From positions 18,347,542 to 18,411,541 of the forward strand of contig NC_057924.1 in NCBI RefSeq assembly GCF_018873765.1: 64,000 nt of DNA, read 5' to 3'. This DNA is from Telopea speciosissima. Taxonomy: Eukaryota; Streptophyta; Magnoliopsida; Proteales; Proteaceae. Below, one piece after another: positions 1-57,840 of the stretch (positions are counted from its first letter, which is position 1; each line of letters starts with the position of its first letter). Both the position numbers and the translations under genes were made by a program. The notes under the pieces were generated by a model that worked only from the letters and a program-made list of their open reading frames with translations, was not told the origin of the DNA and did not search any database.

Positions 1-784
1 AATATTAAAACATAGTTCCAATAACAGGATTGGGATCAGGTTAGATAAGTTTAGCTATTAGGAAAAAATCCTGTGTGGTATCCTAATCTGCGGTGCATTG
101 TAGTACGGGCTTAAGAGCTGGACACGTGGAAGATGCCACATCCAATTGTGCCGAGCTCAAGAAGAAAAAAAAAGAGAAAAAAAAAACTGCTTTCCATCAA
201 GTTCGCACCGTTGGATGATGCTTCCTCCACAAGTCGAGCTCTCAAGGTCGCACGGAGTGCACCACCAAATGCCCGATGCAGAGGATTTTAATCCGTTTAA
301 TTAAGCTTGGTAAATATACATGTTGGGGTACGATGTCTTGTATTTTGGTGCTTGTATAACTAGGCTGATTCCAAAGGGCCGTTAAGAGATCCAGAGGAAT
401 AGGTGGGTCTCGCGTGTTTATCTTCGTTACTAGAGTTAACGAATTGGTAGGTCCATGGTTGGGGTTCGGGGGCGGTAGGCCCCAAAAATAATTATTTTAG
501 GGTTATATCGGTATTCCGGTAAATTACTTATGGGAAAGATCCCGATGACGCCAGTGTTTGGGCTGAAACTACATGGCCCCATTGTAGCACCACCTTCTAA
601 AAAGTCCTAAATATATCCCCCTATTTGACAAAATTTCCTATTCGACCACCCTCCTTCATCCAAAACTGCACTCGGTGTCGAAAGGAACCCTCTCTCATCA
701 CTTATAGGGTTTCGCTATAAATTTATAGTGATGTTTCTTACTCTTTAATTAATATGAGAGAGGCGTGAAGTCAAGCGACTATAG
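1..784. other. No gene recognised
   Basis: Nothing here could be assigned to a gene. Reading frames are short on both strands and no domain, tRNA or clear repeat unit was found. It is probably degenerate repeat or intergenic DNA beyond the end of the adjoining Copia fragments. Confidence 0.4.
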
Positions 785-905
785 CCCTATTCTTCATTGA
801 TGGTAAAGTGTGGACGTAGGTAATATTACTGAACCACAAAAATCCTTGTGATCGTCGTGTGATTGTTTGTTTATGATTTCCATTTTCTTCTACATCATTT
901 TTTGT
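785..905 (+). repeat. Copia LTR R/U5-like fragment
   Basis: The stretch GTGTGGACGTAGGTAAT...TGAACCAC followed by AAATCCTTGTGATCGTCGTGTGATTG has the layout of the R/U5 part of many plant Copia LTRs. The same pattern occurs near the end of the complete LTR at 5530-6493 (GTGGATGTAGGC...TGAACCACGTAAATC). No LTR end or internal region was found next to it, so it is a remnant. Family membership is inferred from this shared pattern only. Confidence 0.4.
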
Positions 906-1592
906 TAATGTTTTTCTAAAATACATTGATAGGATGCTAGTGCAGCTCTTAAGCTGCATGACATGAGGTGGAATAAAATGCTCATCGTCATTGATCCTTC
1001 TTTCACTTGCTTTTTTACCAGGTCTGATAGGTCGGTCGCCCAGTAGCCGCTCCGCTATGGAGCTACATGTACACCGCCACGTCGAAACTCTCTTTTGAAA
1101 GTGAGATCACTACCGGCTTGTTGAAGAAGCCCTTCAGGCTCCCTAAATGCAGCCGTGATCTTATATACGATACCATCAGACGCACCTTGGTACATCCATC
1201 CGCCAATCAAGGCTAGTGGAGCGAAGGAGCAAGAAAGAAGAAACTCCCTGAGCTCCTAGCGCGCCAGAACAACAAAGACAAGGCTTCTTATGCCCAATGG
1301 AGAGTCAGGTGTGCGCAACAACTTTCGCGCGAGGCGTCATTGCTTGTTGGGGGCAAAATGGAAGACCAAATAGAATGCCATGGCTGTTGCGATATGTTTT
1401 TAATATGTTATCTACCTAAAGACAACCTGTGAGTCATGTTTTAGTATGAAAAGTTGAGAGTGAAGATGTATTAGTAATTGTTTACATTCTATAATTAAGG
1501 ATAGTGGAAGAATATTATAAGTTGTACATAAAAAGTGGGGCATTCCATAAACGTGTAATTTCTTTAGGTTCGTCGGTGCTTTGTCGATTACC
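906..1592. other. Unassigned, one coding-like stretch
   Basis: No gene identified. Around 1068-1210 (+) a frame without stops reads YTATSKLSFESEITTGLLKK and continues to a stop near 1217; around 1245-1370 another open stretch contains ASYAQWRVRCAQQLSREASL. The composition looks coding-like, but I recognise no family and see no splice sites or start that would make a gene model. Confidence 0.3.
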
Positions 1593-1830
1593 TGTTGTAA
1601 TAGCCTAAAAATTGTTAGGGTTTAGGGTTTAAGCACAATGTTGCTTAAAGCAATACACCATGCATATCAACCTTGGAATAAACATGTTGCTGCCTCCAGT
1701 TAGTATCTATAGGAAAGACTAGGGTTTTAGGTTAGATGGGTTCTATCCAGTGGGGCCCACCACAGCTTGATTCCTTATTCAAGTAAACTTATATTAAAAC
1801 ATATATTAGAGTTATAGAATATACCCAACA
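1593..1830 (-). repeat. 3' LTR of a minus-strand Copia fragment
   Basis: Read on the minus strand, a purine-rich tract (AGGAGGAGAT, complement of 1831-1840) is followed at once by TGTTGGGTATATTC, the normal arrangement of polypurine tract and 3' LTR start. The inner edge at 1830 is therefore firm. The outer edge at 1593 is a guess: it is where CAACA, the inverted partner of TGTTG, occurs. No target-site duplication could be tested because the 5' end of this element is gone. Confidence 0.5.
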
Positions 1831-3540
1831 ATCTCCTCCTATGTTCTACATATAGTCGGCACCAAGAATAGATAAACATTGTTCAAACGCAATATTGTAC
1901 CAAATAAACAGAATGTTTAAAACTTTAACGGATCATAAAGTAAACTTCAAGAAATAGAACCTTTGAGTTTTAGATCGAATCTAAACCCAAACAACAAGAA
2001 ATTCCACATGCAGGTGAAAAGTTAAAAGAAAAAAATCCTTGCAATCCTTAATGACTTTACTCATCAAGTAAGTCATCATCATCGAGTTCCATATTTAAAC
2101 GTTCTCCTCCATCTTCGTCATCCTCTGTAATTTATCAAAAATGAATTTCATAAGAAAAATGAATTCAATTATTTGCATAAAATATAAGAGTATCTAGTTC
2201 AACCAGAAGAACTTAGTACAATTCATATAATGGCAAAAAATGAATCAAAATTCAACAATAAGCATTATCATCAAGTTTTTATACAAGAACAAGACCCTAT
2301 ATAATCTCTTTCGGAAGGACCATATCATGTTTCCTTTGGAATATTATAATCATCATAGCAATCACATATGTTGTATCATTAAGTTTGGAATGACACATCA
2401 TACTATGAAGGATTGAAAGATAAGCAAACTATCAACAAAACATATCAAAATGATTTTCATATTTCTTTGTGGAATAACAAAATAAGGAAACGTCATACGA
2501 AATTTACTACACCATCAAATTTGGAATGGTTTCACAAACCTCCATACTTTGTAATCTTACCGATTATCGAAATATGTAAATTGTCACAAATGCTTATTAT
2601 GGCTAGATGAGATTGAATAATTCAAAATAACATAGGATTAGATTAAGACATGCCGAAAGGTCTTTAATCCCATTTCCCTGCAGATTTTGAATGTTCGATC
2701 TTTGTCCGATCCCTTTGTAAGAGCATCGCCATATTATCCTTCGATCGCACATTGATCAAAGTGATGATTCGTATTCGGTCGAGATAATTCAGCATGGCCT
2801 ATTTCAGCCTGATATGCCTCCTCTTTCCATTAAAGAGTGAGTTATTAACTATCATTTTCGTAGCTTGATTATCACAGAATAAAGATAGAGAGTTTAACTT
2901 CAAACTTCTCAATGGAATATCCCTAACCAGATCTTTGATCCACTCTACTTCATCTCCTGCAGAAGCTAGAGCAACAAGTTCCGATTTCATAGATGACAGA
3001 ACAATACAATTCTGTCTCTTGGATTTCCATGCAACAGTTGCTCCACCCATTGTAAATACATATCCACTGGTACATTTACTGTCTCCCAAATTTGAGCACC
3101 ACAATGCATCAGAATATATTTCTAAAATTGGAGGATGTCCAGTATAGTGTAAGACATACCTTAGAGTACCCTTAAGGTATCTCATAAGCCTCGTCAGAGC
3201 ATCCCAATGCTCTTTGTCAAGATTACTAGTGAATCGACTCAGTATGCCTACCGTAAAGGCTATGTCTGGTCTAGTATAACTCATTGCATACATGAGACTA
3301 CCAATCAGTTTAGAATAATCTAACTGATTCACAGTTTCACCTGTATTAGGTTTCAGCCGTTGGTTATAGTCATAAGGTGTCTCAATTAATTTGCAACTGT
3401 ATCCCCATTTAGAAAGTAGTTTCTCAATGTAATGAGTTTGGCTAAGACCGATCCCTTGCCAATCAAAACTTAATTTCATACCAATAATGGTGTCTACTAC
3501 ACCAAGATCTTTCATGTCGAATTCTTTAGACAAGGTTGCT
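1831..3540 (-). mobile_element. 5'-truncated Ty1/Copia element, 3' part
   Basis: From the right, this holds the end of a Copia polyprotein (reverse transcriptase connection and RNase H), about 800 bases of non-coding 3' sequence, and a polypurine tract that abuts the LTR ending at 1830. The sequence changes abruptly near 3540 into a different Copia element on the opposite strand, so RT fingers, integrase, protease, gag and the 5' LTR are missing. The junction is a break or an insertion boundary; no duplication was found there. Confidence 0.8.
2799..3533 (-). pseudogene. Copia RT C-terminus and RNase H
   Basis: The open frame begins SKEFDMKDLG, the standard Copia motif after the YVDD palm, and continues through GLSQTHYIEKLL, GSLMYAMSYTRPDIAFTVG, the RNase H block EIYSDALWCSNLGDSKCTSG and KSKRQNCIVLSS to SLFCDNQATKMI. 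The usual D-A-D-W of RNase H reads DALW and the usual S-T-E reads S-M-K-S-E, so key positions look altered. The sense continues past the stop toward about 2660 (ITLINVRSKDNMA). It is only about 245 residues of a polyprotein normally over 1,300 residues, so it is a dead fragment. Confidence 0.85.
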
Positions 3541-10429: not shown

Positions 10430-12800
10430 GGCCTAAAATAAAATAAGGGAGGAGAGAAAAAATATATATTTTTGGCCCAAATAAGGAGTGCAGACTAGTT
10501 CTGCAGAGTACCCAAGCCCTCTTGAATTCCCGAACAAAATTCTAAGATCCCATAGGGGGTTTCATCTTTTTCCCAATTTTTCGAAAATTTCTCTTTCTCT
10601 CTCTCTCTCTTCTTTTCTATGGATTATTCCAGTTTTTTCTTTCTTCTTTTATTTGAATGATGGATGGTATTTATAGGCGTAGAATGCATTTTGGTGCACG
10701 TTAGTGTGCGTAAATGCACGTTTGCAAAGTGTGGCGGCGCATGTTAGCCTTCTAGCTTGTGGCCTACACACTTTAGCATTGTGTGCCAATGCATGTTAGC
10801 ATACGCTAGTGCATGGTCTGTGAGGCGCATTTTAGCAATATGCACCGATTATGCAAAGATCCGACCGTCAAATTCTAACATGGAGATCCGGCCATTAGAT
10901 TCCAGTATTCAATATATCGTTAGAAAGGTTTTTCCGTGTACTATCCAATGATGCAAAGATTGACAGGAACACCGCCAAAACTATGCTCAAAGAGGGGGTT
11001 CCCAAAAATCTTAATTTGCATAAAATAATGGCCAAATGATATCGTCTTTGCACCAGAGCCTAAACGTGCTCTTTAAATGATGAAATGAAAGACCAAAACC
11101 AACATTGTTGGAGAAAGTAAACAATACTTCCTGGATTAAACTGAGATCAAGCTTCACCAATCAACAATTATACCATGGACAAACCAGTCATTTATTTGTT
11201 GTTTGATATTTGGGAGAGATGTTAGACTCAATTCCCCATTGTCTAGAGTGTCCTAAAGGTTGACAAATTTTAGTGTCTAAAGGGGGTTGTGGCGCCAGTG
11301 GCTTGCCACATGGCAACCCCTGGTTGGCCTAGTTTGCTTAGAAATGCTAATTTTGGCCAAAAAATCCAAAAGACTGTAGACATTGAATTTTGTCACCACC
11401 CGACAATGATGACAACCAAACATGTACAGATGACGTCTTTCTCATATCACCCAAAACCTGTAAAAACACCCACAAAATGATCAGGTATCACCGGAAGACT
11501 AGACAAAGCCAAACAGAGCCAACCGAGGGCTAGTGGCGACATCGCCAAGAGTCCGACAGCACCTTCCAAGCTCCGACGGCGCTGACCAAAGCTTGGGTGG
11601 CACAACTGAGGGCTTTAAAGGCGTCACCGAACACCGGGGACCCAACACACACAAAAATCCTGGACAGTGATTTTACAAATGTCCATCCAGTCAGTGGAAG
11701 ACATTTGGAAGCTTTTATCTCGGTGGCTAAGATTTCGAGGAATGAATCAAAGAATCCACACACAGGGGCATGCCAATCATACAACCGCACACGGTTGAAT
11801 TCGGTTGCTCCACAATGAGCATCTGGCCCACAAGTGCATAACCAAATATTTATGGACCAGACACTACTAAACTATTACTATGGAATGACCATCTTCCTCT
11901 GTATTTGGGTGTTGTTTCTTTCGTGCTATGTATTACATACAACGCTTGTGTAAAATTTATACACCTTCTATTTTGACAGACTAAACAATGTTTTGTTCTT
12001 AACTAAGTGAATTGATATTTTGGAGTAAGGGTCCTTTTGTATTTGGTTGTTAAAAGGCCCCATAAATTGTCTCAGCTGTTCAGTGCATCAAACTTTTCCC
12101 AATATATTATTACCAAACAAGAAAAAAAAGTTAAATATAATACATGTTTTCTGTATTTAATTAAAAAAACATATAAAAAGCACACAAAAAATGGCAGATA
12201 GTGGATTAAGAGAAATTATTTCTTTGTCAGTGATGAGATCTTCTGCCTAGTGGGTTATGGCTGGTTGAGACTTATTTACTTAATTGGCATAACAATTTCG
12301 TGTGACTATTTGACCATGTACACTTCCTATTTAACCGGGAATGGAAGAGATGAACTGAAAAAGTGCACAAGATTGCAAGCTGAGATGATTTCTTCAAACT
12401 GCTCTCATTTTCATTCTTTCCTACCTTTGACAATATCTTATCCACCTGGGGAAAATTAGCAATAAATTAAAGAGTTGTATATCTTATTTTTTAAGAATAT
12501 TTTAGAAAATTTGATCCAGTGGCAACATTTCATAGAACTAGGTGAACCGAAATTTATCATGAAAATTTATTCCCTTTTAAATAAAGAATAAAACATCAAG
12601 CTTCAAGACTAACAAGTATAATTTTTTTTGCGTAGAATTCATTTGAAGTGGCCTTAAACTTCTATCCTTAGGACACCCTACACCAACTTTGAAACTACAA
12701 AATTCAGGTCAACAACAAAGTATTTAAAGTGATCAAGGAAATCTCAGTTTTCTTTGAACTTTTCCTCGGAAATGATGGTTTTGTGTTAAGTTACTTGGGG
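10430..12800. other. No gene recognised
   Basis: There are only short frames without domains. At 10690-10850 there is a cryptically repetitive stretch rich in alternating purine-pyrimidine words such as GCATGTTAGC, GTGCACG and TGCATG. Positions 12240-12460 hold one longer frame (GYGWLRLIYLIGITISCDYL...) that I cannot assign. The base CTTAG at 12801-12805 is the left target duplication of the Tat element. Confidence 0.4.
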
Positions 12801-12805
12801 CTTAG
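12801..12805. repeat. Target-site duplication CTTAG, left copy
   Basis: CTTAG lies directly before TGATGAGTC (left LTR) and again at 25300-25304 directly after CAACA (right LTR). A 5-bp duplication is what Ty3/Gypsy integrases produce. It identifies the outer LTRs as the true ends of one insertion. Confidence 0.85.
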
Positions 12806-13675
12806 TGATGAGTCATGGATCTACCAAGCCAACCAGAGGTAACCATGTGGATGTGCTGAGACCAAACCCCAGAACCGAGCCGATCCCCCCAAGGTCGAGC
12901 CAAACCGGTCACCTGAAGAAAGGAAGCACTTCATTTCGTGCCAGGCCGAACACCGGGGCCGAACACTTAGCCTGCCGAGAACTGGGCCGAGCACCCGGTG
13001 CGCGGTGCAACACCTAGCGTAGGGCAAGGAAGTGATCTCCTCATCATGGCCAAATTCCATGGCCGAGGCGCAGGCTTGCCGAGCCCACTCAAGTCGGCCA
13101 TACGCAGAACACCATGGCTCGGCCGAGCTTCCGCGCATCCGAAGAAAAGTCCGTGCCACATGCGCAGAGGCCGAGGCCGAGCATTGAGGCCACAGCCGCC
13201 CAGGGCTGAGCACTGAGGCCACGGCCACCCGAGGTCGAGCCCTCCACAGAAGCTACCATAACGCCCCACCGGGGATCACGGTGCCACAACAGCACAACCC
13301 GAGAATCACGAGATAAGGATCGAACCACGATCCCACGAGATTCCGAATCGCTCTCCAATAAGGACTCTTACCTTAGTGAGAGTCTTACCCCGAAAATAAC
13401 TCTCCACTCCGCCCCGCGCGGAAGAGCCCTACCAACAGGGGACTCCTACCATACAAGGACTCCTCCAACCGGCTCACCTCATTCAATAAAATACTCAGGT
13501 ATGGAGCTCAAACGCTCATCTCGATTTTCACTAAGCTATTACGTTGTTGCACTGGAGACCTGACTTGAGCGTCGAAGAGTCCTAGGCCGAAGCCACACCG
13601 GCTCTCTTGCGCTCGCTTGATTTTTACAGGCTCATCCGTGGGTGAACATGGCGACGGAGGTTTTCACACGCAACA
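12806..13675 (+). repeat. Tat element 5' LTR, 870 bp
   Basis: Starts TGATGAGTCATGGATC and ends TTTTCACACGCAACA. It contains two copies of a 29-bp subrepeat (GAGCATTGAGGCCAC...) at about 13180-13240, and the block TACCTTAGTGAGAGTCTTAC followed by CTCCACTCCGCCCCGCGCGG. ATTCAATAAAATACTCAGG near 13480 is the decayed counterpart of the TATA-like CTATAAATACTC of the 3' LTR copies (24220, 25110). The short GC-rich frames on both strands of the LTR are not genes. Confidence 0.9.
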
Positions 13676-23523: not shown

Positions 23524-23536
23524 AGTGGGGGGCCTG
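23524..23536 (+). promoter_or_regulatory. Tat polypurine tract
   Basis: GAGTGGGGGGCCT lies immediately before the LTR start at 23537 and would prime plus-strand DNA synthesis. A second copy of its core, TGGGGGGCCT, lies immediately before the LTR that starts at 24386. Confidence 0.7.
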
Positions 23537-24375
23537 TGATGAGTCATGGATCTCCCAAGCCAACCAAAGGTCACCACGTGGATGTGTTGAGACCAAACCC
23601 CATAATCGAACCGATCCCCCAAGGCCGAGCCAAACCGGTCATCCAAAGAAAGGAAGCACTTCATTTCGTGCCTGGCCGAACACCGGGGCCGAACACTTAG
23701 CCTGCTGAGATCTAGGCCGAGCACCCAGTGCACGGCGCAACACCGAGCGTAGGGCAAGGAAGTGATCTCCCCAGCATGGCCAAATTCCATGGTCGAGGCA
23801 TAGGCCTGTCAAGCCTAGAGCCGAACCCACTCAAGTCGGCCATACGCAGAACACCATGGCTCGGTCGAGCTTCCATGCGGCAGAAGAAACGTCGGTGCCA
23901 CATGCGCTGAGGCCGAGCACTCAGGCCACGGCCACCCAGGACCGAGCACTGAGGCCACGGTCGCCAGAGGTCGAGGCCTCCACAGAAGCTACCATAACGC
24001 CCCACCAGGGATAACGGTGCCACGACAGCACAACCCGAGAATCACGGGATAAGGATCGAGCCACTATCCCATAAGATTCTGAATTGCTCTCCAATAAGGA
24101 CTCTTACCTTAGTGAGAGTCTGACCCCAAAAATAACTCTCCACTCCGCCCCGCGCAGAAGAGCCCTACCAACAGGGGACTCTTACCATACAAGGACTCCT
24201 CCAACCGCCTCACCTCATTCTATAAATACTCAGGTATGGAGCTTAAACGCTCATCTCACTTTTCACTAAGCTGTTATGCTGTTACACTGGAGACCTGACT
24301 TGAGCGTCGGAGAGTCCTAGGCCAGAGCCACACCGGCTCTCTTACGCTCACTCGGTTTTTTACAGGCTCATCCAT
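23537..24375 (+). repeat. Inner 3' LTR copy, end missing
   Basis: Starts TGATGAGTCATGGATC exactly like the other two LTRs and runs the whole LTR length up to ACAGGCTCATCCATGG. There it passes straight into a second polypurine tract and another LTR. The final 30 or so bases seen in the complete LTRs (GGTGAAC...GAGGTTTTCACACGCAACA) are missing. It has two 29-bp subrepeats. Confidence 0.9.
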
Positions 24376-24385
24376 GGGGGGCCTA

Positions 24386-25299
24386 TGATGAGTCATGGAT
24401 CTCCCAAGCCAACCAGAGGTCGCCACGTGGATGTGCTGAGACCCAACCCCAGAACCTAGCCAATCCCCCCAAGGTCTAGCCAAACCAGTCACCCGAAGAA
24501 AGGAAGCACTTCATTTCGTGCCTGGCCGAACACTTAGCCTGCCAAGAACTGGGCCGAGTACCTGGTGCGCGGTGCAACACCAAGCATAGGGCAAGGAAGT
24601 AATCTTCCCAGCATGGCCAAATTCCATGGCCGAGGCGCAGGCCTGCCGAGCCCACTCAAGTCAGCCATACCCAGAATACCATGGCTCGGCCGAGCTTTCG
24701 CGCGACTGAAGAAACATCTGTACCACATGCACCAAGGCCGAGGCTGAGCAATGAGGCCACGACCGCCCGAGGCCGAGCACCTAGGCCACTCCCGCCCTAG
24801 GCCGAGCACTGAGGCCACTGTCGCTTAGGGCCGAGCACTGAGGCCACGGCCACCCGAGGTCGTGCCCTCCACAGAAGCTACCATAACGCCCCACTGGGGA
24901 TCACGGTGCCACGACAACACAACCCAAGAATCACGGGATAAGGATCGAGCCACGATCCCACGAGATTTCGAATCGCTATCCAATAAGGACTCTTACCTTA
25001 GTGAGAGTTTGACCCTGAAAATAACTCTCCACTCTGCCCCGCGCGGAAGAGCCCTACCAACAGGGGACTCTTACCATACACGGACTCCTCCAACCGCATC
25101 ACCTCATTCTATAAATACTCAGGTATGGAGCTCAAACGCTCATCTCGCTTTTCACTAAGCTGTTACACTATTGCACTGGAGACCTAACTTGAGCGTCGGA
25201 GAGTCCTAGGCCGGAGCCACACCGGCTCTCTTGTGCTCGCTCGATTTTTGCAGGCTCATCCGTGGGTGAACCGGGTAATGGAGGTTTTCACAAGCAACA
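24386..25299 (+). repeat. Outer 3' LTR, 914 bp
   Basis: Starts TGATGAGTCATGGATC and ends TTTTCACAAGCAACA, then the target duplication CTTAG at 25300-25304. It carries four copies of the 29-bp GAGCAxTGAGGCCAC subrepeat (about 24745-24862) where the other two LTRs have two. A 15-bp segment near 24530 (CACCGGGGCCGAA in the others) is missing. Confidence 0.9.
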
Positions 25300-33316: not shown

Positions 33317-33321
33317 TAAAG

Positions 33322-33534
33322 TGTTGAATAATGTAAACCAGAATACTGTGGGGGTATTCTGGTCTTTTTGGTGTTTATTGTTATGTTTTTAAGTGTTTTA
33401 TGTGCTGCCTAGCTATGTCGGCTATGGCAGGGGTATTTTTGTCATGTGAATGTAATTTTTAAAGCTATAAATAATAGGCTTGGCTGATCACAATCGATCA
33501 TTCAAGCATTCTCCAATTTCTGGTTTTGATAACA
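33322..33534 (+). repeat. Copia 5' LTR, 213 bp
   Basis: TGTTGAATAATG...TTTTGATAACA. It contains a perfect 9-bp hairpin, CCAGAATAC at 33338-33346 and GTATTCTGG at 33354-33362, and a TATA-like CTATAAATAATAGG near 33465, which should drive element transcription. Confidence 0.95.
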
Positions 33535-33548
33535 TGGTATCAGAGCAG
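33535..33548 (+). promoter_or_regulatory. Primer-binding site, tRNA-iMet
   Basis: TGGTATCAGAGCAG begins at the base after the LTR and is complementary to the 3' end of plant initiator tRNA-Met, the usual primer for Copia reverse transcription. Confidence 0.9.
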
Positions 33549-38495: not shown

Positions 38496-38717
38496 GAGGG
38501 GGAGTGTTGAATAATGTAAACCAGAATACTGTGGGGGTATTCTGGTCTTTTTGGTGTTTATTGTTATGTTTTTAAGTGTTTTATGTGCTGCCTAGCTATG
38601 TCGGCTATGGCAGGGGTATTTTTGTCATGTGAATGTAATTTTTAAAGCTATAAATAATAGGCTTGGCTGATCACAATCGATCATTCAAGCATTCTCCAAT
38701 TTCTGGTTTTGATAACA
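38496..38717 (+). repeat. Polypurine tract and Copia 3' LTR
   Basis: GAGGGGGAG at 38496-38504 is followed by the 213-bp LTR at 38505-38717, with no difference from the 5' LTR seen by eye, and then TAAAG at 38718-38722. Confidence 0.95.
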
Positions 38718-38866
38718 TAAAGACTATTAAATAACTAAGCCCATGACTGGGCTTGGACTAAGTGCACACATTGGGTATACTTAGCCACCATTGAGCTGGA
38801 CCTGGTTCTCTTCTTTGTTCCTGCTTCACTGTTTCTTATGACTACTTAGGTTGGTTAGTTGAGGTT

Positions 38867-46619: not shown

Positions 46620-46890
46620 CTTGACATCCCTAGACACGAAGATGTTTAAGGCTAGGTTTTCTCCCAGTCCAGAGTTCAAATGGGGTATTCCTGACTGACT
46701 TTCTTGGTACTCTATTGAAAATATGAGTGGTAGTTTTAAGTGCCTCACCCCATAGAAACTTCAGCAAACTAGAATTGCTCATTATTGACCTTACCATGTC
46801 CTTCAACGTTCTATTTCTTCTTTTGGCAATCCCTTTTTGCTGTGGAGTCCCAGGCATAAAATACTGTGGAGCAATCCCATGCTCTTGTAA
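46620..46890 (-). pseudogene. Copia integrase, distal part
   Basis: From the Harbinger boundary leftward: QEHGIAPQYFMPGTPQQKGI, AKRRNRTLKDMVRSIMSNSS, KTTTHIFNRVPRKSVRNTPF, ELWTGRKPSLKHLRV. The catalytic-glutamate region reads GIAKRRNRTL where NGVAERRNRTL is usual, so E seems replaced by K. It joins directly to the proximal integrase part ending at 57055 when the Harbinger is removed. Confidence 0.88.
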
Positions 46891-46920
46891 GAGCCCGTTT
46901 GGTAACACTTTTGTTTCTTG
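46891..46920 (+). repeat. Harbinger left terminal inverted repeat
   Basis: GAGCCCGTTTGGTAACACTT, then TTGTTTCTTG. It matches the complement of the right end at about 25 of 27 positions. Confidence 0.9.
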
Positions 46921-47535
46921 TTTTTGGCGTTTTTCTGTGCTAGTAACGGAATCTACCGTTTGGGTGCACCGGTTTGTTTTTATGTGCCAGTGAAACAAAC
47001 CGGCCAAAAAAAACATAAAAAACTCCTATTGACAAAACAAGGAAAACCTTGTTTCTTCACTTTTGAAACAGTTTGGTTGAAACAAAAAAAAAAAAAGAGG
47101 TTAGGGATAGTTGTGCCTGATAAAAAAGAGGTCTCCACTTCTCACTCTCACATCTCCATTGAACTTGGGTAAGCCCAAAACTTCATCTTCTTCTCCTCCT
47201 TCCTCTGTTCATCATCTTCTTCTTCCTCTGCCCTAACCTATTTTTTTTCTTGCTGATTTGTGAGATCTAACCTCTACCCTTTGATTTTGTAGAAATCCCA
47301 TAGATCGTAAGCCCTAACTTCATCTTCTTCATCTTTTGTTTTCGTCTTCCTCTGCTACAGATTAAATCACCAGGTATGTCTTTGTCTCTTTGTTTATTTT
47401 TTTTTTGTCCATCTATTATTTTTTGGATTTCTGTATGTGCTTGAAATCTAAAAAACCCAATACTCGACGGACGACAAAACATTGCTGGCGATCCAAATGA
47501 CGTCCATCATCACCCAAAATGATGTTTTCAAACTC
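46921..47535 (+). other. Harbinger left subterminal region
   Basis: Non-coding, with homopolymer tracts (A-run 47081-47095, T-run 47396-47407) and pyrimidine-rich stretches at 47185-47350. Frames on the minus strand at 47416-47535 continue the P450 frame but no longer match that family. Confidence 0.5.
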
Positions 47536-47604
47536 GATTCTGAAAACCCCAAAATTCCTGAGGTTTCTGGTAGAGAACTCGAAACTCGCAATCTTCCTCT
47601 GTTG

Positions 47605-50020
47605 ACACTGATGAGCACATTTATGTGTGACATAAAACATATCTTTTACCACATTGGACAGAGTTACTTTGGTGCTTTCTTGTGCTTTTCAGGTTTTGGG
47701 CTATTCTGGACTATCGGGAGCTGCATGTCCAAAGTTTCACGTAAAGTTGCCATTTTTCATTCCATGGTTGTAAAGAGGACTAAATTTGGAGCAAGTTGGA
47801 CGTGACGGAACGTAAATACGCATTCGTCTAGGCCATCGTACAGTTGATTATTCTTTTCAGCCCAAGAAAGGATAATGGGTCAAAAAAGGAGCTGTAGTGC
47901 AAGCCCATAGTCAGTCTACCACTGCCCAAGGACATTTTTGACATTATAGAAGATATTTTTAAGCAATGGTGGAGATCTACTGCAAGTACAAGGCTGTTTC
48001 AATAATTTTGCATTCTTGAAGAGAGAGAAGGACTGCTACCCACATGGAGGGACCCACACTGCCATTAGATTCCATTAATTTTGAAGGCCCACAAGGTATC
48101 CACGATTTTTATGGGCTACATTTAATGCCCCATGATTTTTAGAGGACACATTGGGGATTTTGTTATTTGATTGAGTGGAATCCTAGTCATCACTATCCTA
48201 GTCATCGCTCTCTCTCTCTCCTCCAACTTTTCAAGGGTATTCCTGAAATTTCACTTGGGATAGATTTATTTTGAAAGATATTTTCTCATCTATAGAAGGT
48301 TGAAAAATCAAAGATGCTTTGATTTTATTGCTCTGGAGAAGATATTTACCAAGAAAAGGAAGCACAAGTTAGAATTAGAAATTTACTTTTCTAGAAATAG
48401 AAGGTTTATGTAAACAATATTCTCTTCTTCTCTTCTTTCTATTTTTTTGCTTTTTCTGAGGAGCCAAGGCAATGTAAAGGAGGAAGGAGAAGAAAATATT
48501 CTCTTTTCTTAGGAAATATTTCTCCTACACTTCCCTCTTCTCTCTTCTCCCCTTTCCCCTATAAATACCCCCTACCTCTCTTGTAAAGTTTGCTCATTCA
48601 CTTAGTGAAATTTCTTCTCTTCTTCTCCTTCTAATTTGTGATTTTTGGCTTTTCTAAGTTCTAGTTTGTTTTTATTTTTATTTTGATTTAATGGTTATAA
48701 TAGGTTTAGTTTATGCTTTAATTTCAATTTAAGTCTTTAATTGGGTTGTAATTTCTTAATTCTAGTTTAGGTTTTAAGCCTTCTAGTCTAAATTCTTAAG
48801 TTGATGACAAGACTTGAAGATTTAGAAGAGGAGGCCATGGTAAGTTTATGCAAGTATTCAAGCTTTTCAATTACATTCATTCAAGCACATCTAGGTTTTA
48901 CTATCTAAACTCTCAACCTCATTCTCCATCTCCTCTATCTCTCTCTATCTTCTTCTTCTTCTCCATCTATTTCTTTTATTTTAATTTTATATGATTGTGA
49001 TTTGTGGATGCATTTTTATTTTCTTATTTCTTTTTATGTGGTTAGTATGTGTGGCTGCATTTTTATTCCTTTCAATTCGCTTTAGTTTGATAGGTTAGAT
49101 GCTCATGTGTTAGGACGCCAATTTAATCCCTTAATTTTGTTAGATGCTTATGAGTTAGGATGCATTGATTTTTGTTAGTATAATTAGTTTAATTTAACAC
49201 TTTAATTTGGTTTACTTTGCATTATTTTTAAGTTAGTTAAATAGAGTGGCGTATATCTCCTCGTGTTCGACCCGTAGTTACGATTGACCCGTACGCTTGC
49301 GGTTTTATTTTAACTCAAATAAGTTTTTAGCACCGTTGCCGGGGAGATTATTGTCCATTTTATTTATCTGATTTTTAAGTAGTTCAAAGTGTTTTAGTTT
49401 ATTATTTTCTCTTCTTTTTTTGAAAAAAAAAAAAAAAATTTTAAAAACCTCTTTTTATTTGTCTTCTGTTTCAAATAGTATGCGCCCAATCTAAAGTCCT
49501 TCATATGCTTCAACCCTCCATCTTTTGGTGTCCTTCGTAGGATTAAGTTATCTATGATGCTACATCTTGACTTGGTTGGGTGGATTGGCATGTGACTTAT
49601 TTTTGGAGGTGACCACTCTTGATAACAGGAAAGCAACACAGTGAGAGCGTTGGAAACATAAACGTATAGTAGACCTCCACTCTACATCAAAATCCATTTG
49701 GAGTCGACCGTAGGTGGCTATAAAAGACTATATGGGTTCTCTTGTTGTCAACCTATATGGCATCCTTACAGCTTTTGAACCATTATTTCGATTTTTGAGG
49801 GATAGATGCACTATCTACCTTGGGCTCCCTCTTGTTTTTAGTACTTTTTCTTAAGTCTTTTATTTTTCTTCAATTTTTCTAAAGGAGACCTCATATCTGT
49901 TTAGGTGGCTACGGTGTGGACTCGTGATTCATATAATCGTCTTATTAGAATACCACCTTCTCCATTATTCTTAACCCCACCTTTGAACATGGGTGACCAA
50001 CAACCCAAGACCCATTTATC
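47605..50020 (+). mobile_element. Athila/Tat-type LTR retrotransposon, 5' fragment
   Basis: An LTR of about 1.7 kb (about 47605-49317) starts near TGATGAGCACATTTATGTGTG and has a TATA-like CCCTATAAATACCCCC near 48558. It is followed by AGCACCGTTGCCGGGGAG at 49329, close to TGGCGCCGTTGCCGGGGA, the tRNA-Asp primer-binding site of Athila-type Gypsy elements. About 700 bases of leader follow, ending near a gag-like MGDQQPKTH (49989), where the P450 sequence resumes. No pol or 3' LTR is present, so it is truncated, or a short non-autonomous form. Confidence 0.7.
49327..49345 (+). promoter_or_regulatory. Primer-binding site, tRNA-Asp type
   Basis: TTAGCACCGTTGCCGGGGA lies 9 bases after the presumed LTR end (CTCA, 49317). 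Its core CCGTTGCCGGGGA is complementary to the 3' part of plant tRNA-Asp, as in Athila-type elements. Confidence 0.7.
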
Positions 50021-50441
50021 GCCATTAATATTAAAGATACCATGACCAAATAGATCTTCTAAGATTTCATAGTTTTGGAATCCCTTGCTGTATTTTTCAA
50101 AGTTGGTTTTGAGTAATGTGTTTGACGTTTCGAGGGTTTATTGTGAAGAGGTCACTTTTGGATGGACCGAGGAGACGAAAGGTTTTATATTTGAGGGCAG
50201 CATCGGTGTAGTGATCGTAGACTTTGTTGAAACAGAGTAGCGAGTGGAAGACAGTGCCCATTACAGGAGCATACTGAGGGTGCTTCAGTGATTTACCCAT
50301 GAAGATTCTTAGTAGCAGAACACAAAAGCATATGAGAACAAAGCAGAATGAAGCCATTGCAGCACTCATCACTGTTGCAGATAATAACTCCATCTTTGCA
50401 AGTAACTGATAGAGGAAAATTTCATAAATGGTAGGGAGCAA

Positions 50442-51618
50442 GGGAGAAATTCATGACATCAGTTAAACACATCTTTTGAATCATGGATTAGAATTAAGCC
50501 TTAAAGGCACAACGTGAAGAAAAAAAAATCCATTCCACTCTATAGGCACTGACTAATTGTCTTTAAAGGATATAAAATAAGATCTGAAAAATAAAGAATT
50601 GAAACCGTACTGTACAGAATACAATATATATTTTCAATACCAATATTGTACCAATTCGGTATTTGTTTTGGTATGATATGTATTTGGTTTTGAAAACAGT
50701 TTTTATTAGATGAGAAGGTCTAATCTATTGTAAAAGGAATCGTGAGTTTCAGCCTTAAAAGCAGTTGCTATGCCACTGTCGACTACAACTACCGGTACCA
50801 AGAACGATGGTGGCCAACATATGCTTCTTCAGTTGTGGTTTGTGTGATTACACTTTCATAAAAAAAATAGGCTTCTTCATTGGGATATTTGGAGAGAGAA
50901 AAACACAAATCAATCATTGTATCATCATAATTTTGGTCTTATTATGTTTGTACTTTTCTTTTGTTGACATCCAAACATAACTTTAAAGTATCTGGTTGGC
51001 AAGAGAGTGTGAGGGTGTATGACAATGAGATTTTCTTATTTATTTTTTTGATGATTGGCTGTAAGAGAAAATGTGCAGCAATTTTGCACTTTTCTTATAG
51101 TCAAAAGAAAGCCCACGAACTATAAGAGGCCCAATGGTCACCTCTGATCATGGTTTTAGGAATTGGTATTGAGGAGGGTATCGGTCTCTGTCAATACCGC
51201 TCCCAATCGGACCGTATTGGCTGAGAATCAGCCTGCAAGGCTTGTAAATATCATTTTTTTTTGGGGTATTGGATCTAGTATCGATTCTGATTGAACCCCA
51301 AGTATCAGCCCATACCAGTTCGCATGATGTGATCCAAATCGAATCGAATCGGCCAATCCGATTGTGTCTCCCTCCTATGAAATGTCATATCTGTCCTTCT
51401 ATTATGGGAGGAGACAGATAGAAGAATATGAAATCACCCAATCGGTTGATTGTGTTGTAACGGATCTTTGTTTTTAAAGATTGCTCATGAATTCTTTGTT
51501 GAACTGAGTCTGGATTCTCCTGTTGGCTTGTAAACCATTTCTTACTGATTTTGACCTTAATTTGGTATGATAGTACCTATGAAGAATACAATGTGAACAT
51601 TTTTTATATACAGGACAT
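50442..51618 (+). other. Harbinger internal spacer with dispersed repeat
   Basis: No coding exon seen. At 51140-51375 there is a copy of the CGATTCGGATCGG/GGTATCGG type repeat (GGTATTGAGGAGGGTATCGG, AATCGAATCGAATCGGCC) related to the cluster at 8985-9400. Confidence 0.5.
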
Positions 51619-52615
51619 ATGGCTAGTAGTAGCATTGACAATGTCAAATGGACACAAGTTGAGTTAAATTTTTTTATTGAATTCATGATTGATAATGTGA
51701 AACGCAGGAATAAGACTGCTAGTACGTCCAACAAAACTGATTGGAATGACATTAAATCCGGTATGGAGAATTATCTGGGACGTGCCATTTCGAAGGAACA
51801 ATTACGTAATAAGATTTATAAGCTGCGGATAGAATACAGTAACTTCAAAAAGCTACTGGATACAATGGGTTTTGGGTGGAATTCTATGACAAGGATAGCC
51901 ACAGTTGATGATGAGTCAGTCTGGGATAGAGCAATACAGGTAAACATATATAGACATTATTTATGAAAAGTTTAGATATAAATAATCATCTACAGCATTA
52001 ATTAATTATAATTTTTTATGTAATTAATCTTATTATTGTTATTATATTTTTCAGTCAAATCCAATATGGTCTAAATTTAAGAAAAATGGATTATCCTATT
52101 GGCCAGAGTTGTGTATCATCTTTGGAGACTCGTATGCGCTAGGGAACATACGATCGTGCAACACCGATCCTATTATTGACATGACAGAGGGTAATGAAGA
52201 TAATATAGATAGAGTGTATACACCTCCCCCCACTGAGAGATTCCATGATGATATAGATGGTTTTGAGGAAAACGAGAACTCGAACAAAAGACCCCGTGAT
52301 AGTACACTGCCAGCCCGTAGAAAAAAGAGTCTAACTAGAGATGCAGTAACTTCATTGAACCAACTTGGTAGATATATGAATTGGAAAATGGAGAAAGCGA
52401 CGAGTACTTTTGCCACATCTCCAATTCGAGGTGCTCGTGCTACATCAGAATATAGTGCTAGTGCTTGTCAAGCTATACTGGACAGCATTGATGATGCTCC
52501 TAAGGACCAGTATGTGAAGGCTATTGATCGTATGTGTGTTGATCCAGTATGGAGGGAGATTTTTATTACAGATAAATCTGAAAAAAGGGCTTGGATACTT
52601 GATGGTTTAAAGTAG
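51619..52615 (+). CDS. Harbinger ORF1, Myb/SANT-like DNA-binding protein
   Basis: Two exons, 51619-51939 and 52055-52615, are joined by an intron with ACAG/GTAAAC and TTTTTCAG borders and give 293 residues without a stop. Residues about 9-105 form a Myb/SANT-like domain (WTQVELNFFIEFMIDNVKRR, TDWNDIKSGMENYLGRAISK, EQLRNKIYKLRIEYSNFKKL, SVWDRAIQ, then NPIWSKFKKNGLSYWPELCI). The middle is acidic with a basic SNKRPRD...ARRKKSL patch, a likely nuclear signal. The tail, VKAIDRMCVDPVWREIFI, is typical of the family. In PIF/Harbinger elements this protein helps the transposase enter the nucleus and bind ends. It is the only intact TE frame in the window. Confidence 0.85.
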
Positions 52616-53308
52616 TGCCTGTAGCTTTGCAGATGATGTTTTATTTGATACTATTTGAACAAGTGTATTTGTCTTTTTAATTTTTTTATTTCGTACTTGG
52701 ATTTATGTTTGAATGTTGAGATTGTTTAAGTTTTACTATATAGTCAATATCTTCAGATAATTTAGATGATTCATCCAGTGATGAAGATATCGTACTTTTT
52801 CATACAATTCCGTTGTTGAGTATGTTGATTCGTGATAGGGAACCTTGTAGAACTAGTATATACCAAGGCTCTGTGTTTGTTAATGAGATGTTGAATGGGC
52901 ACCCAACCATATGTTATGAAGAATTTAGGATGGAGAAGCATGTTTTTGAAAACCTATGTTCATGGGTGACTCATAGGGGTTGATTGGAGGACACACGTTA
53001 TGTACGTGTTGATGAACAAATTGCAATGTTCCTTTGGATGGTTGGTAAAGGTGCAAGCAATAGGGATGTATAGAATAAGTTTCAATACTCGGGAGAAACA
53101 ATTAACCGTATTTTCTAAAATGTATTGGTTGTGATGCGGAACTTAGCTAAGGAGAAGATCAAACCATCAAATTTCAATCGAGTATCCAAAGAGATTGACC
53201 AGAATCCCAAATACTATCTGTACTTTAAGGTAAACTTGGATAGTATATATATGCTCAAATCCCAGACACTGTCAATTATATTCATATGCAACTTCTTTTT
53301 TTTTTTTT

Positions 53309-53601
53309 GGGTTTTTTACAATTACCACCCCAAAATCTTTACTATCTACTATTACCCCCCCAAAAACTTTCAAACAACTGTTACCCCCCTCTGTTGCATA
53401 CTAATAACTAACTGACCCCCACCGTTACATTTCTGTAACGGAGAGGGTTAGTCGTGACAGTGTGCCGTTGTCACGAATTTTTTAGGACCAAAATAACCTT
53501 TTGGGGTTTTGGGGTGGTAATTGTAAAAAAAAAAAAAAAAAACCCATCACCGTCCCTTCTCCTCCTCTTTCTCGTCCTTCTTCTTCTTCTTCCTCCTCTG
53601 C
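53309..53601 (+). repeat. Left inverted end of the MYB-carrying element
   Basis: The outer 235 bases are themselves nearly palindromic at their edges: GGGTTTTTTACAATTACCAC at 53309 and GGGGTGGTAATTGTAAAAAA at about 53510. So each arm looks like a miniature element with its own inverted ends. Confidence 0.8.
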
Positions 53602-54012
53602 ATAAAACCAGTTTCATTGGATCAAATTCTTTCTAGAACAACCTTTACAGAAATCAAATAACAAAAATATGGAAAGAGAAATCTCTCTCCCTCTCCCTCT
53701 CGTTTAAATGATGAGATTTCGTTTAATTTCTTTTAACTCTCATGAAAAAGTAGACCTACCTACCAAATCCCATTCAGCATTGAGCATCTCTTTTCTGATC
53801 CTATCTTGTAACTACTCGTCTTCCTCACTAAGTCGGTCAAATGCCCACGAAAGGGTTCGACTCAATTGGTACTCAAGAGTTTCTTCCTCATATAAATCCT
53901 CTCGTTCCTTTGTTCCAGTACTCCTTTCCATAAATCCTCTCTCTCTCTAATTAAAAGGGCACAAAACACATAAAAGAAGCAGCAGCAGAACACATAGAAG
54001 AGAGATAGACAG
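53602..54012 (+). promoter_or_regulatory. Captured MYB promoter side / 5' UTR
   Basis: Between the inverted arm and the MYB start are CT-rich tracts (CTCTCTCCCTCTCCCTCTCG near 53682, CTCTCTCTCTAATTAAAAGG near 53938) and AGAAGAGAGATAGACAG just before ATG. This looks like a plant gene 5' untranslated region. No certain TATA box. Confidence 0.4.
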
Positions 54013-54588
54013 ATGGGTCGTTCTCTTTGCTGTGAGAAAGCCCACACCAACAAAGGTGCATGGACCAAAGAAGAAGATCAGCGCCTCATCAACTACAACA
54101 GAGCCCATGGCGAGGGCTGCTGGAGATCTCTCCCCAGAGCCGCAGGTAACCCATTTAGGATTAACCTAACCCAAATCAGCCAAGCTAGAGAAAACCCATC
54201 GTTACTTCCTCTCTAACTCTCTTTCTCTCCATTTATGTGTGTGTTTCAGGTTTGCTGCGTTGTGGAAAGAGTTGCAGATTAAGATGGATAAATTACCTGA
54301 GGCCTGATGGATAAATTACCTGAGGCCTGATCTCAAAAGAGGCAATTTTACTGAAGAAGAAGACGAGCTCATCATCAAACTCCATAGTTTACTTGGAAAC
54401 AAGTAAGCCCCCTTCTCTTTCCTTCTCATCAATTCTTTTCGATTACACATTTAATTGAGAATCTGAAAGCACTTCCAGTATGAACTCATTTGGGACTTTT
54501 TTCAAATATTTAGATGGTCTCTAATTGCTGGTAGATTACCCGGAAGAACGGACAATGAAATCAAGAACTATTGGAATACCCACATCAG
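54013..54588 (+). pseudogene. R2R3-MYB transcription factor fragment, subgroup-4-like
   Basis: Three exons with GT-AG introns. 54013-54145 reads [40 protein letters not shown], then PRAAG. 54250-54402 reads [20 protein letters not shown] and [20 protein letters not shown]. From 54514 to about 54588 it reads [20 protein letters not shown], then NTHIR. Intron positions are the standard ones of R2R3-MYBs and the conserved tryptophans of R2 and R3 are present. Exon 2 holds a perfect 23-bp tandem duplication (54284-54306, 54307-54329) that shifts the frame and creates a stop. The sequence leaves the MYB after HIR, just short of the C-terminal regulatory region. The best match from memory is MYB4/MYB308-type repressors of phenylpropanoid genes. 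Confidence 0.88.
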
Positions 54589-54724
54589 GGTACTCCAGAC
54601 GCCACTTATATGGGTGAGAATTTAATTGGGTTTTTCAAATGGGCCTGAAAAAAACCTGAATTTTCTATCGGTCCAAGGTTTTTGATTTTGGTTTGATGGC
54701 AGCCACATTTTGGGGTTGGGGTTG

Positions 54725-55028
54725 CAGAGGAGGAAGAAGAGGAAGAAGAAGAAGAAGAAGGAGAAGGAGGAGGAGAAGGGACGGTGATGGGTTTTTTTTT
54801 TTTTTTTTTTTTACAATTATCACCCCAAAAGGGTATTTTGGTCTTAAAAAATCCGTGACAACGGCAAACTGTCACGACTAACCCTCTCCGTTACGAAAAT
54901 GTAACGGTGGGGGTCAGTTTGTTATTAGTATGCAACAGAGGGGGGTAACAGTTATTTGAAAGTTTTTGGGGGGGGGGGGGGGTAATAGTAGATAATAAAG
55001 ATTTTGGGGTGGTAATTATAAAAAACCC
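54725..55028 (-). repeat. Right inverted end of the MYB-carrying element
   Basis: Inverted partner of 53309-53601, with CT-rich inner part (GAGGAGGAAGAAGAGG complement), the GTGACAACGGCAAACTGTCA block and a long G run at 54968-54981. It ends AAAAAACCC and then the T run. Confidence 0.8.
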
Positions 55029-55858
55029 TTTTTTTTTTTCACTTTTTCATTTTGCTTCTGTCTTAGGATTGCATTGGTGCCATAGATGGTACTCACATTC
55101 ATGCGATAGTCCCATGGGGAGATCAAATCCGATATAGAAATCGGAAGGGGATTACTACACAAAATGTGATGTGTGTATGCACTTTTGACATGCGATTCAC
55201 ATTTGTGTATACGGGCTGAGAAGGAAGTGCGAATGATTGCAGAGTCTTTGAAGCAGCAAGGAGTAATCCAGATTTGAGATTTTCTCATCCGCCTCCAAGT
55301 ATTTTTGGGAACCATTTCAGTCATACACAATATATTTGTGTATGTTGTGTAATAATGTAAATACTTCTACTTGTAGGAAAATATTATGTTGTCGATTCCG
55401 GATATGCAAGTCAAACTGGATATCTCATACCATTTAGAGGTGAGAGGTACGATCTACCAGACTACAGAGAGAACAGGAGAAAACCAACAACAGCAAATGA
55501 ATTATTCAATTATAGACATTCATCTCTTAGGAATGTCATTGAACGTACATTTGGAGTATTGAAGAATAAATTCAAGTTGTTAAGACAAATGAATGGTTAC
55601 TCCTTGCAAGACCAAGCTCACATTGTGCTAGCATGTTGTGGACTTCATAACTTCATCAGAGATGAGCATATTGCAGATGAAGATTTAATGAGATTAAGTG
55701 ATGACCTAGCAGAGGTAGATCCTGATGAACTTAACCCCGTTCATAAAGACTATGTCCCTTCAGTATCACAGATAAGTTAGCGTTATTGGGCTAGAGAGAT
55801 TAATGAAACTAGGATTCGAATTGCTAATGTACTGGCAAGGGAAGTTGGAATGTCATAG

Positions 55859-56208
55859 TTAGTAGATAGATGATTGTCTTATGTAATAGGGAGTTTAACA
55901 ATTCTTTCTATGATTGTGATCATTTTTTTTTATATATTATTTTATCTTAATCATGAGAGTTTATTTTTCATTTCAATATTAACTTGGGAGTTTATTTTAT
56001 CAATTCAATATGCTGTATTTATTTTTAATATTATATAGTTTATTTTAACATGATACAAAATATACAGATAACTTCTAAAGTGCCATCACACGCATTAACA
56101 AAATGCGAAATATACAGTAATGATTGTGTTATTTATAAAATAAAGCAAGGGAAGAATATGGGAATGGACTTTTTCAAATGTCCAAGGCACTGTGATTTTT
56201 TCATGTAG
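55859..56208 (+). other. Harbinger spacer
   Basis: AT-rich non-coding DNA after the transposase. It may include the transposase 3' UTR (TTTTATCTTAATCATGAG near 55940). An ATG at 56157 opens GMDFFKCPRHCDFFM and meets TAG at 56206, directly before the next exon. Confidence 0.4.
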
Positions 56209-56658
56209 GTTGAACAACTAAGATTTTTTAAATGTGGAGAATATCAATGTAAGGTTCGAACTGTGAAAATAATTTCAAATAATGGACGATGGTTTTGGTG
56301 TTACCCTAAATTGGATGGGGTAATGTTTATTGCCCTTCTTAATAAGTAAATTTCATTATTCTACTTACATATATATTCAACTATGTTAATCATGTTTAAT
56401 TTTTCAATAGGCTAACAACCGTGGGTGTGGTATGTACGCATGGATAGACGAGACAACACCTAGCTCTTCCATACAACATACTCCTCCTACGTCACCATGT
56501 TCGAAAACATCAACATCTACGCTTCCTTCTCCTGCATCATATTATATGAAATGATATTTTGAAGGTAAAATTAAAGGGACAGAGGATCATATGAAGAGCT
56601 TGAAAGATGTTCTCAGTGCAATGAAGAAATTGGAGTTAAACGAGAAAGAAGATTGATG
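56209..56658 (+). pseudogene. GRF-type zinc-finger frame
   Basis: Exon 56209-56319 reads VEQLRFFKCGEYQCKVRTVK, IISNNGRWFWCYPKLDG. After an intron ending TTTTTCAATAG, exon 56411 onward reads ANNRGCGMYAWIDETTPSSS. The pattern C-G...RTVK...N-GRWFWCYP...G-CG-F-W is the GRF zinc finger (zf-GRF), a small nucleic-acid-binding module. A TGA at 56552 is followed in the same frame by YFEGKIKGTEDHMKSLKDVL and AMKKLELNEKED to a stop near 56656. It has the transposase's strand and lies between it and the right inverted end. It may be a third Harbinger protein or a captured exon. Confidence 0.65.
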
Positions 56659-57021
56659 CAATTCATATGATTTTGTAATAAATTAAAAATACTGTTTGAG
56701 GATTTAGAAGATTGTAGTTTTAAAAATGATATTTTTTTTCTTAGGCTTTAAATTTTTATGTGTAATGCATCTTCAGATATTGTCATCATGGTGAATGTTT
56801 TCATTTTAATTTTAAATAAGTTTAATCAAGTAATGACATTTCTATAATAATTCATTAATTTAGTAAAAAGTATTTCAAAGCAGATTTTACCAAATGAATT
56901 TGTGTTGTTTTTCTGTTCTATAAACGTTTTTGGAATAAGTTTACCAAACACCATTTTAGAGTCCAGAAACATATTTTCAGCACAGAAATAGAAAAAAATG
57001 ATAAAGATAAAAAACATTTGT

Positions 57022-57051
57022 TCTGGAACAGAAGTGTTACCAAACGTGCTC
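57022..57051 (-). repeat. Harbinger right terminal inverted repeat
   Basis: The complement reads GAGCACGTTTGGTAACACTT, then CTGTTCCAGA. TAA follows at 57052-57054. Confidence 0.9.
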
Positions 57052-57054
57052 TAA

Positions 57055-57840
57055 GAACTTGGTAAAAGGCCCAAGGTATTGATTAACATCACCACTTTTT
57101 CCATAATACTCTCCACCCTTATCAAATCTGACAGACTTTATATTTTTATAATGAAAAACTTTCACCTCAGCCTTAAAGAATTTAAAGGCATCCAGGGCAC
57201 TTGACTTATCACGCAGCAGAAAAATATACCCATTATGCGACCAGTCATCAATGAAGGTGATAAAGTACTACTGATTTTCAAGTATTGGAGTTGGAAAGGT
57301 TCCACATATGGATAAGGTCCAAAACTCAATCACACCGGGAAGCATCCTTCTTCCTGGAAATAGTCATATTCCCTTTGATGTAGTCAATACATATACTCAT
57401 GTCCTTAAAGTCAAGGTTATTCAGTATTCCTTCCTGTACTAGCCTGTCCATTCTCTTCCTAGCAATGTGACCTAGCCTCTTATGCTAAAGCAAAGAGGAC
57501 TTCTCATTAAATTGAAGGCGTTTCACTCCAATATTCATAATCATAGAAGAAGCTAAATTTAGTCAGTAGAGACCCTCAGACACATAACCACATCCAAGAT
57601 AAACAAAATTATAAAGTAATGTGAAGCCATTCTTATTGAAATTAGCAAAATAGCCATCCATAGTCAATCTAGATACTGAAACCAAGTTCTCCTCATTGAG
57701 GGAATGAAAACTACATTCTTCAAATCAATAAAATGTTCAGAATTAAAAAGCAGTTTAATAATTTCTATGGCTTCCACATCCACTTACGCTCCATTTCCCA
57801 CGAACATGCTCACCTCACCCTTGCTTAACACCCTCCTGTT
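57055..57840 (-). pseudogene. Copia integrase, proximal part
   Basis: Minus-strand frames give HKRLGHIARKRMDRLVQEGI near 57480 (zinc-binding H-H), LNNLDFKDMSICIDYIKGNM, and the core YFITFIDDWSHNGYIFLLRD near 57265 with SVRFDKGGEYYGKSGDVNQY near 57125 (second D), then LGPFTKFL at the Harbinger insertion. Stops and shifts separate the parts. The remaining third of the core lies at 46890-46620. Confidence 0.85.

Follow-up and report, generated by a model that had tools for sequence, protein, structure and literature searches.

In 2008, Benjak et al. (PMC2528002) reported host gene capture by PIF elements, in Pifvine-3 of grapevine, and Gisby and Catoni (2022, PMC8903248) describe Pack-PIF elements of maize and rice in which PIF ends surround host gene pieces, in multiple copies. 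The latter treat the wider class of Pack-TYPE elements as non-autonomous and propose that two neighbouring insertions can move as one together with the DNA between them; another account repeats this fusion proposal and leaves room for other routes (PMC13317346). We analysed 64,000 nucleotides of Telopea speciosissima DNA (contig NC_057924.1, positions 18,347,542 to 18,411,541; hereafter the window), in which a 10.16-kb PIF/Harbinger element spans 46891-57051, has TAA duplicated on both sides and carries part of a host cytochrome P450 gene. The element is best described as a transduplicating PIF/Harbinger similar in kind to Pifvine-3, and it has Pack-PIF relatives. It works like a Pack-TYPE element, resembles known gene-capturing transposons and is unusually well traced.

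The same cargo is present in two independent insertions, a parent gene exists, both copies have changes in common relative to that parent, and the sites of both later inserts are empty in the second copy. These observations make it very probable that a Harbinger with ORF1 and a transposase captured the 5′ part of a CYP704-like gene once, that the cargo decayed, that the element then transposed and that the later inserts entered the window copy. Like Pifvine-3, the family has a variable host-derived 5′ region upstream of ORF1, with two leaders on the same body; unlike Pifvine-3, it belongs to another host, and its parent gene, common frameshift and alternative leaders and cargoes could be traced within one family. 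The first-pass annotation had called gene capture less well known for PIF/Harbinger, which is fair, yet the grapevine report has stood since 2008. The window element agrees with the Pack-TYPE description in carrying a mobilised host gene fragment between family ends, but Pack-TYPE elements are described as non-autonomous and without transposase (PMC8903248), whereas this element retains ORF1 and transposase sequence, though broken, and therefore lies outside the definition. Short family members such as L025, without an ORF1 or transposase match, fit Pack-PIF directly. Our literature search, whose coverage left out most subscription papers, met no account of this Harbinger family in Telopea.

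Inverted ends with a 3-bp TWA duplication, a DDE_Tnp_4 transposase and a Myb/SANT-like ORF1 protein assign the element to PIF/Harbinger, and ends, PF12776 and PF13359 agree with the first-pass annotation of a 10.16-kb Harbinger with inverted ends, TAA duplications and its own ORF1 and transposase. Its inverted arms of 31 nt (46885-46915 and 57027-57057) are 87% complementary, and its left flank reads like a piece of a retroelement integrase frame (rve_3, 3.1e-4, under the Pfam cut-off). Because the N-terminal part of the transposase contains three in-frame stops, the window copy is, as judged from its reading frames, not coding-competent in its present state. We searched the host assembly (822,943,500 bases, 1287 contigs) with the left 710 bp (46891-47600), which gave at least 59 matches, with the best 40 of 136 candidates scored, and retrieved 20 stretches for comparison.

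Capture and mobilisation of the P450 fragment by the Harbinger had been proposed in the first-pass annotation, with other copies having the same ends and the same fragment as the check, and such a copy was found. This sister copy (L009/L010, at C9:24.49 Mb) lies 6 Mb from the window element on the same contig and has the ends, the P450 fragment, a TTA/TTA duplication and different flanks. Inserts aside, it aligns end to end with the window copy (46890-47605, 50012-50305, 50366-50495, 51245-52741, 52743-53302 and 55029-57052), with 94.6% and 93.1% identity in the P450 piece, about 92% in ORF1 and transposase and a Kimura two-parameter divergence of 0.046-0.096 by segment. The composite structure is not due to chance, because ends, cargo and body recur jointly in this second copy, at 91-96% by segment, between flanks that do not align. 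The location of both copies on one contig would suit duplication of a single locus with its surroundings, but the flanks fail to align over some 300 bp to the left and to the right, and the target duplications are TAA in one copy and TTA in the other, which leaves this explanation next to no probability. The sister has neither the retroelement-derived insert nor the nested Pack-MULE of the window copy, and it carries a tandem duplication and a 5-kb insert of its own (L009 2929-7965), whose 400- and 230-codon frames gave us the impression of a hAT element. The block 50496-51244 was considered as a nested insert and rejected for its left part; since the alignment to the parent runs on to 50834, the sister must have lost that part.

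Aligned to the parent, the P450 piece occupies 47552-47606 and 50012-50834 and is divided by an insert at about 47607-50011. The first-pass annotation was thus right about the presence of a P450 fragment and wrong about its position, given as 50020-51618. It had also called for a search for an intact CYP704 parent, and this led to L030 on contig 10 (C10), whose long first exon is open and is followed by others as far as the haem-region exon with GPRICLGK, which we take to be the haem-region motif. The subfamily name CYP704 is likewise our assumption, as Pfam gives P450 only (PF00067, E=4.2e-5, 22.9 against a cut-off of 22.8 bits, read through one frameshift and with X at the insert). The raw frame alone had no match in Pfam or PDB; read through, it matches a plant P450 structure at 1e-5. 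The upstream part of the piece is identical to L030 at 387 of 439 positions. A genome search in which all seven candidates were scored recovered the window, the sister (in two pieces) and four CYP704-like places, three on C10 (one in two pieces) and one on C11. One of the C10 genes, L033, has its exon 1 interrupted by about 1.2 kb that to our impression resembles non-LTR (long terminal repeat) retroelement or RNase H frames.

Both Harbinger copies have a one-base insertion relative to L030. In addition, 428 gap-free columns contain 20 differences from L030 that are common to both copies, 18 that are private to the sister, 9 that are private to the window and two sites that differ in all three sequences. 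The common insertion and the 20 common differences argue for a single capture, followed by decay and then transposition. The copies agree with a paralogue at nine of the 20 sites, the parent does so at five, and neither does at six.

To place the P450 within the family, we compared copies of ORF1. With 35 of 35 candidates scored, the genome contains seven copies at 89-100%, the window included, two at 78-80% and weaker ones. Two relatives, C95 (L047 and L048) and C3:56.5 (L049), match both Harbinger ends, ORF1 and transposase and are 92% identical to each other over a 2.6-kb leader, which matches the window only in its first about 200 bp and then again from 51599, adjoining an acceptor-like motif, TATATACAG, just before the ORF1 start, where splicing would take place. 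About 1.1 kb of this leader matches C5:37.80 (93%) and C7:0.637 (87%), among the best 40 of 112 candidates scored. An open frame of 77 codons at the C7 place contains, towards its end, PIPPSGPSKQHN, which differs by one residue from the IDA/IDL1 motif, given in PMC4627355 as [P,L][V,I]PPS[A,G]PSKRHN. The full-type relatives C95 and C3:56.5 thus hold a copied IDA-like signalling-peptide gene together with its upstream region. With C8:14.32, where a C95-type leader is joined to a Harbinger right end, the cargo is present in at least three Harbinger places. The C5 place has a 49-bp deletion in common with the transposon copies and stays collinear with C7 beyond the left boundary of the capture, so an already broken C5-type copy was probably the source.

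The capture step would be either a fusion in which two nearby insertions take up the intervening host DNA, as in the Pack-TYPE proposal, or template switching in gap repair, and the data fit both alike. That switching rather than fusion was at work is a serious possibility, if somewhat short of probable: the left boundary of the IDA-like cargo falls in an A tract, where switching needs little homology, but short family members match the C95 leader in its left part at 84-86%, as fusion would predict, and neither point is decisive. A third route is that another small transposon, such as a Helitron or a MITE (miniature inverted-repeat transposable element), brought the P450 piece into an ancestral Harbinger, which then only carried it along. 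The window copy does host nested inserts, and the IDA-like cargo of C95 has a 9-bp direct repeat close to its two boundaries, 28 bp outside the left one, so this cargo may have been delivered by another element. However, no exact inverted or direct repeat of at least 8 bp occurs within 80 bp of the P450 boundaries (exact matches only; Helitron ends were not searched for), matches to the P450 piece were confined to the two Harbingers and the CYP704-like places, and the C95 repeat is within the range of inverted matches in 120 random pairs (95% at 9 bp), a control that concerns inverted and not direct repeats. We consider delivery of the P450 by such a transposon improbable.

Several points weigh against a single capture by the Harbinger. 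The capture step itself was not observed. Segment 50835-51598 has neither an explanation nor an assigned origin, which would also suit a small transposon. The P450 is present in only two of the seven close ORF1 copies, and two others have a different leader; P450 capture is therefore not general to the family. Agreement with the paralogue at nine of the 20 common sites suggests that either the contig-10 gene changed after capture or the fragment came from a close relative that has since been lost. We nevertheless favour an order of events in which the 5′ part of a host CYP704-like gene would have been acquired once, antisense, between the left end and ORF1, and would have decayed before transposition, presumably by the transposase of a relative, gave rise to the window and C9:24.49 Mb copies. 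In the window copy only, the P450 piece would later have received a retroelement-derived segment and the transposase region a MYB-carrying Pack-MULE.

The insert at 47607-50011 has one LTR-like part, with no second one seen, an imperfect short direct repeat at its edges and, near 49330-49344, a motif that we take to be primer-binding-site-like. For the MYB exons, the first-pass annotation had proposed delivery by a nested Mutator-like element, and this is borne out by the empty site in the sister and by 9-bp duplications at other copies. The nested 1.7-kb element resembles Pack-MULEs, a class named in PMC8903248, in its long inverted repeats, in the 9-bp duplications that flank other copies and in its MYB exons with introns; it differs in its host and in forming a uniform multi-copy set with an R2R3 domain (PF00249, E=2.7e-37, exons joined and one copy of the 23-bp duplication omitted). 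It occurs in at least 17 places at 92-100%, the window included, and in four more places at 80-81% the match to the MYB query covers exons and introns (best 40 of 83 candidates scored). One copy is identical to the window across the 641-bp query. We read ten loci (the window and L038-L046); the nine outside the window align only inside the element bounds, and four of them (L038, L040, L041 and L042) have exact 9-bp duplications. At the window site, a T run is compatible with a 9-bp duplication and not diagnostic of one. The element has a MYB domain, and its short interior implies that it has no transposase, though no search was aimed at one. In six of the ten copies the predicted spliced frame is open through the R2R3 domain. 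Protein-level constraint on the MYB cargo was considered and not supported, with a diversity of 0.0062 in exons against 0.0054 in introns across the ten copies.

Twelve short relatives of 1.8-9.2 kb resemble each other over about 200 bp at the left end and 200-550 bp at the right end, and their interiors are mostly unlike, although some pairs have more in common, for example L017 and L023 (2.1 kb at 87%) and L015 and L018 (0.8 kb in each of two stretches). By tblastn, no ORF1 or transposase match was obtained in any of the 12; nine have 3-bp duplications of TAA or TTA, one has CAA, one is mismatched and in one none is visible. Eight frames, chosen from 41 in ten short relatives, were run against Pfam, and GT61 was the sole clear family: L025 (C7; element at 298-3093 of the locus) has a 160-codon GT61 glycosyltransferase frame (PF04577, 1.2e-12). 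A genome search with the best 40 of 117 candidates scored, in which most of the 162 matches came from a repeated stretch in the query's first 70 bases, placed this fragment at four Harbinger places, each with a Harbinger left end at most 1.3 kb away: L025, C10:38.76 (99%), C4:19.65 (95%) and C5:44.78 (97%, part). It also occurs at C8:59.76 (84%) and, with no listed Harbinger end, at C10:9.85 (97%), a candidate for the source gene.

By contrast, the GRF zinc finger, which the first-pass annotation had counted among the captured gene pieces, is rejected as a capture private to this element. Nine close right halves at 86-100% begin at the query's first base, in the transposase part, and six of them have the GRF block (best 40 of 332 candidates scored), as do more distant relatives at 79% and 73%; the block therefore belongs to the family as a whole, though its distant ancestor may have been captured. 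Precisely this block is missing from C95 and C3:56.5, and C5:5.13 has a larger internal gap there. At C2:16146272-16149566 we noted, next to a fuller copy, four copies of the Harbinger right end with 0.86-0.89 kb spacing, which may be an incipient tandem array.

Features of the window element (positions in the window)
Feature	Position	Strand	Evidence or remark
TAA target-site duplication	left 46888-46890, right 57052-57054		sequence
Harbinger left terminal inverted repeat and subterminal region, common to relatives	46891-47458	+	L011 matches up to 47458 at 80%
Captured CYP704-like exon 1, distal part	47552-47606	-	98% over 55 bp to parent L030 1435-1489
Later insert inside P450 piece, apparent retroelement origin, not in sister	47607-50011		comparison with sister and parent
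Captured proximal exon 1 of CYP704-like gene with its start codon (50393) and some 440 bp of upstream sequence; antisense to ORF1	50012-50834	-	88.0% over 851 aligned columns to L030 1491-2335
Leader upstream of putative ORF1 splice acceptor	50835-51598		51245-51598 common to sister, unmatched in C95 and C3 relatives
ORF1 (Myb/SANT-like), two exons	51599-52615	+	PF12776, E=3.6e-14
Transposase N-terminal part, three in-frame stops	52743-53302	+	sequence read against sister frame
Nested Pack-MULE, inverted repeats about 290 bp, in T tract within transposase region	53309-55028	+	empty site in sister
R2R3-MYB exons 1-3 and introns inside Pack-MULE	54013-54591	+	23-bp duplication in exon 2 breaks window copy
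Transposase C-terminal DDE part	55032-55780	+	PF13359 (DDE_Tnp_4), 5.4e-17 for 55361-55780
GRF zinc-finger block, family component	56062-56589	+	PF06839, E=5.2e-7, two exons joined
Harbinger right end and terminal inverted repeat	56785-57051	+	common to short relatives

Elsewhere in the window, three copies of a roughly 850-930-bp repeat with 81-88% identity, two of them in tandem, lie at 12797-13675 and 23526-25299, and 216 bp are identical at 33320-33535 and 38503-38718.

The two leader types that we read each hold their captured host gene in antisense, its promoter side toward ORF1. It is conceivable, though on these two leader types we think it unlikely, that the lineage exchanges its 5′ leader and that captured host promoters could drive ORF1, with changed expression and escape from silencing as the outcome. 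The GT61 frame of L025 has the orientation opposite to that of the P450 and IDA-like cargoes, in an element without ORF1, and so lends no support to an orientation rule. One PIF/Harbinger family has captured three host sequences, from a P450 gene, an IDA-like peptide gene and a GT61 gene, each of which is present in at least two copies and has relatives at other genomic places; this documents such captures outside the grass and grapevine examples. The leader swap offers a testable idea on why captures persist.

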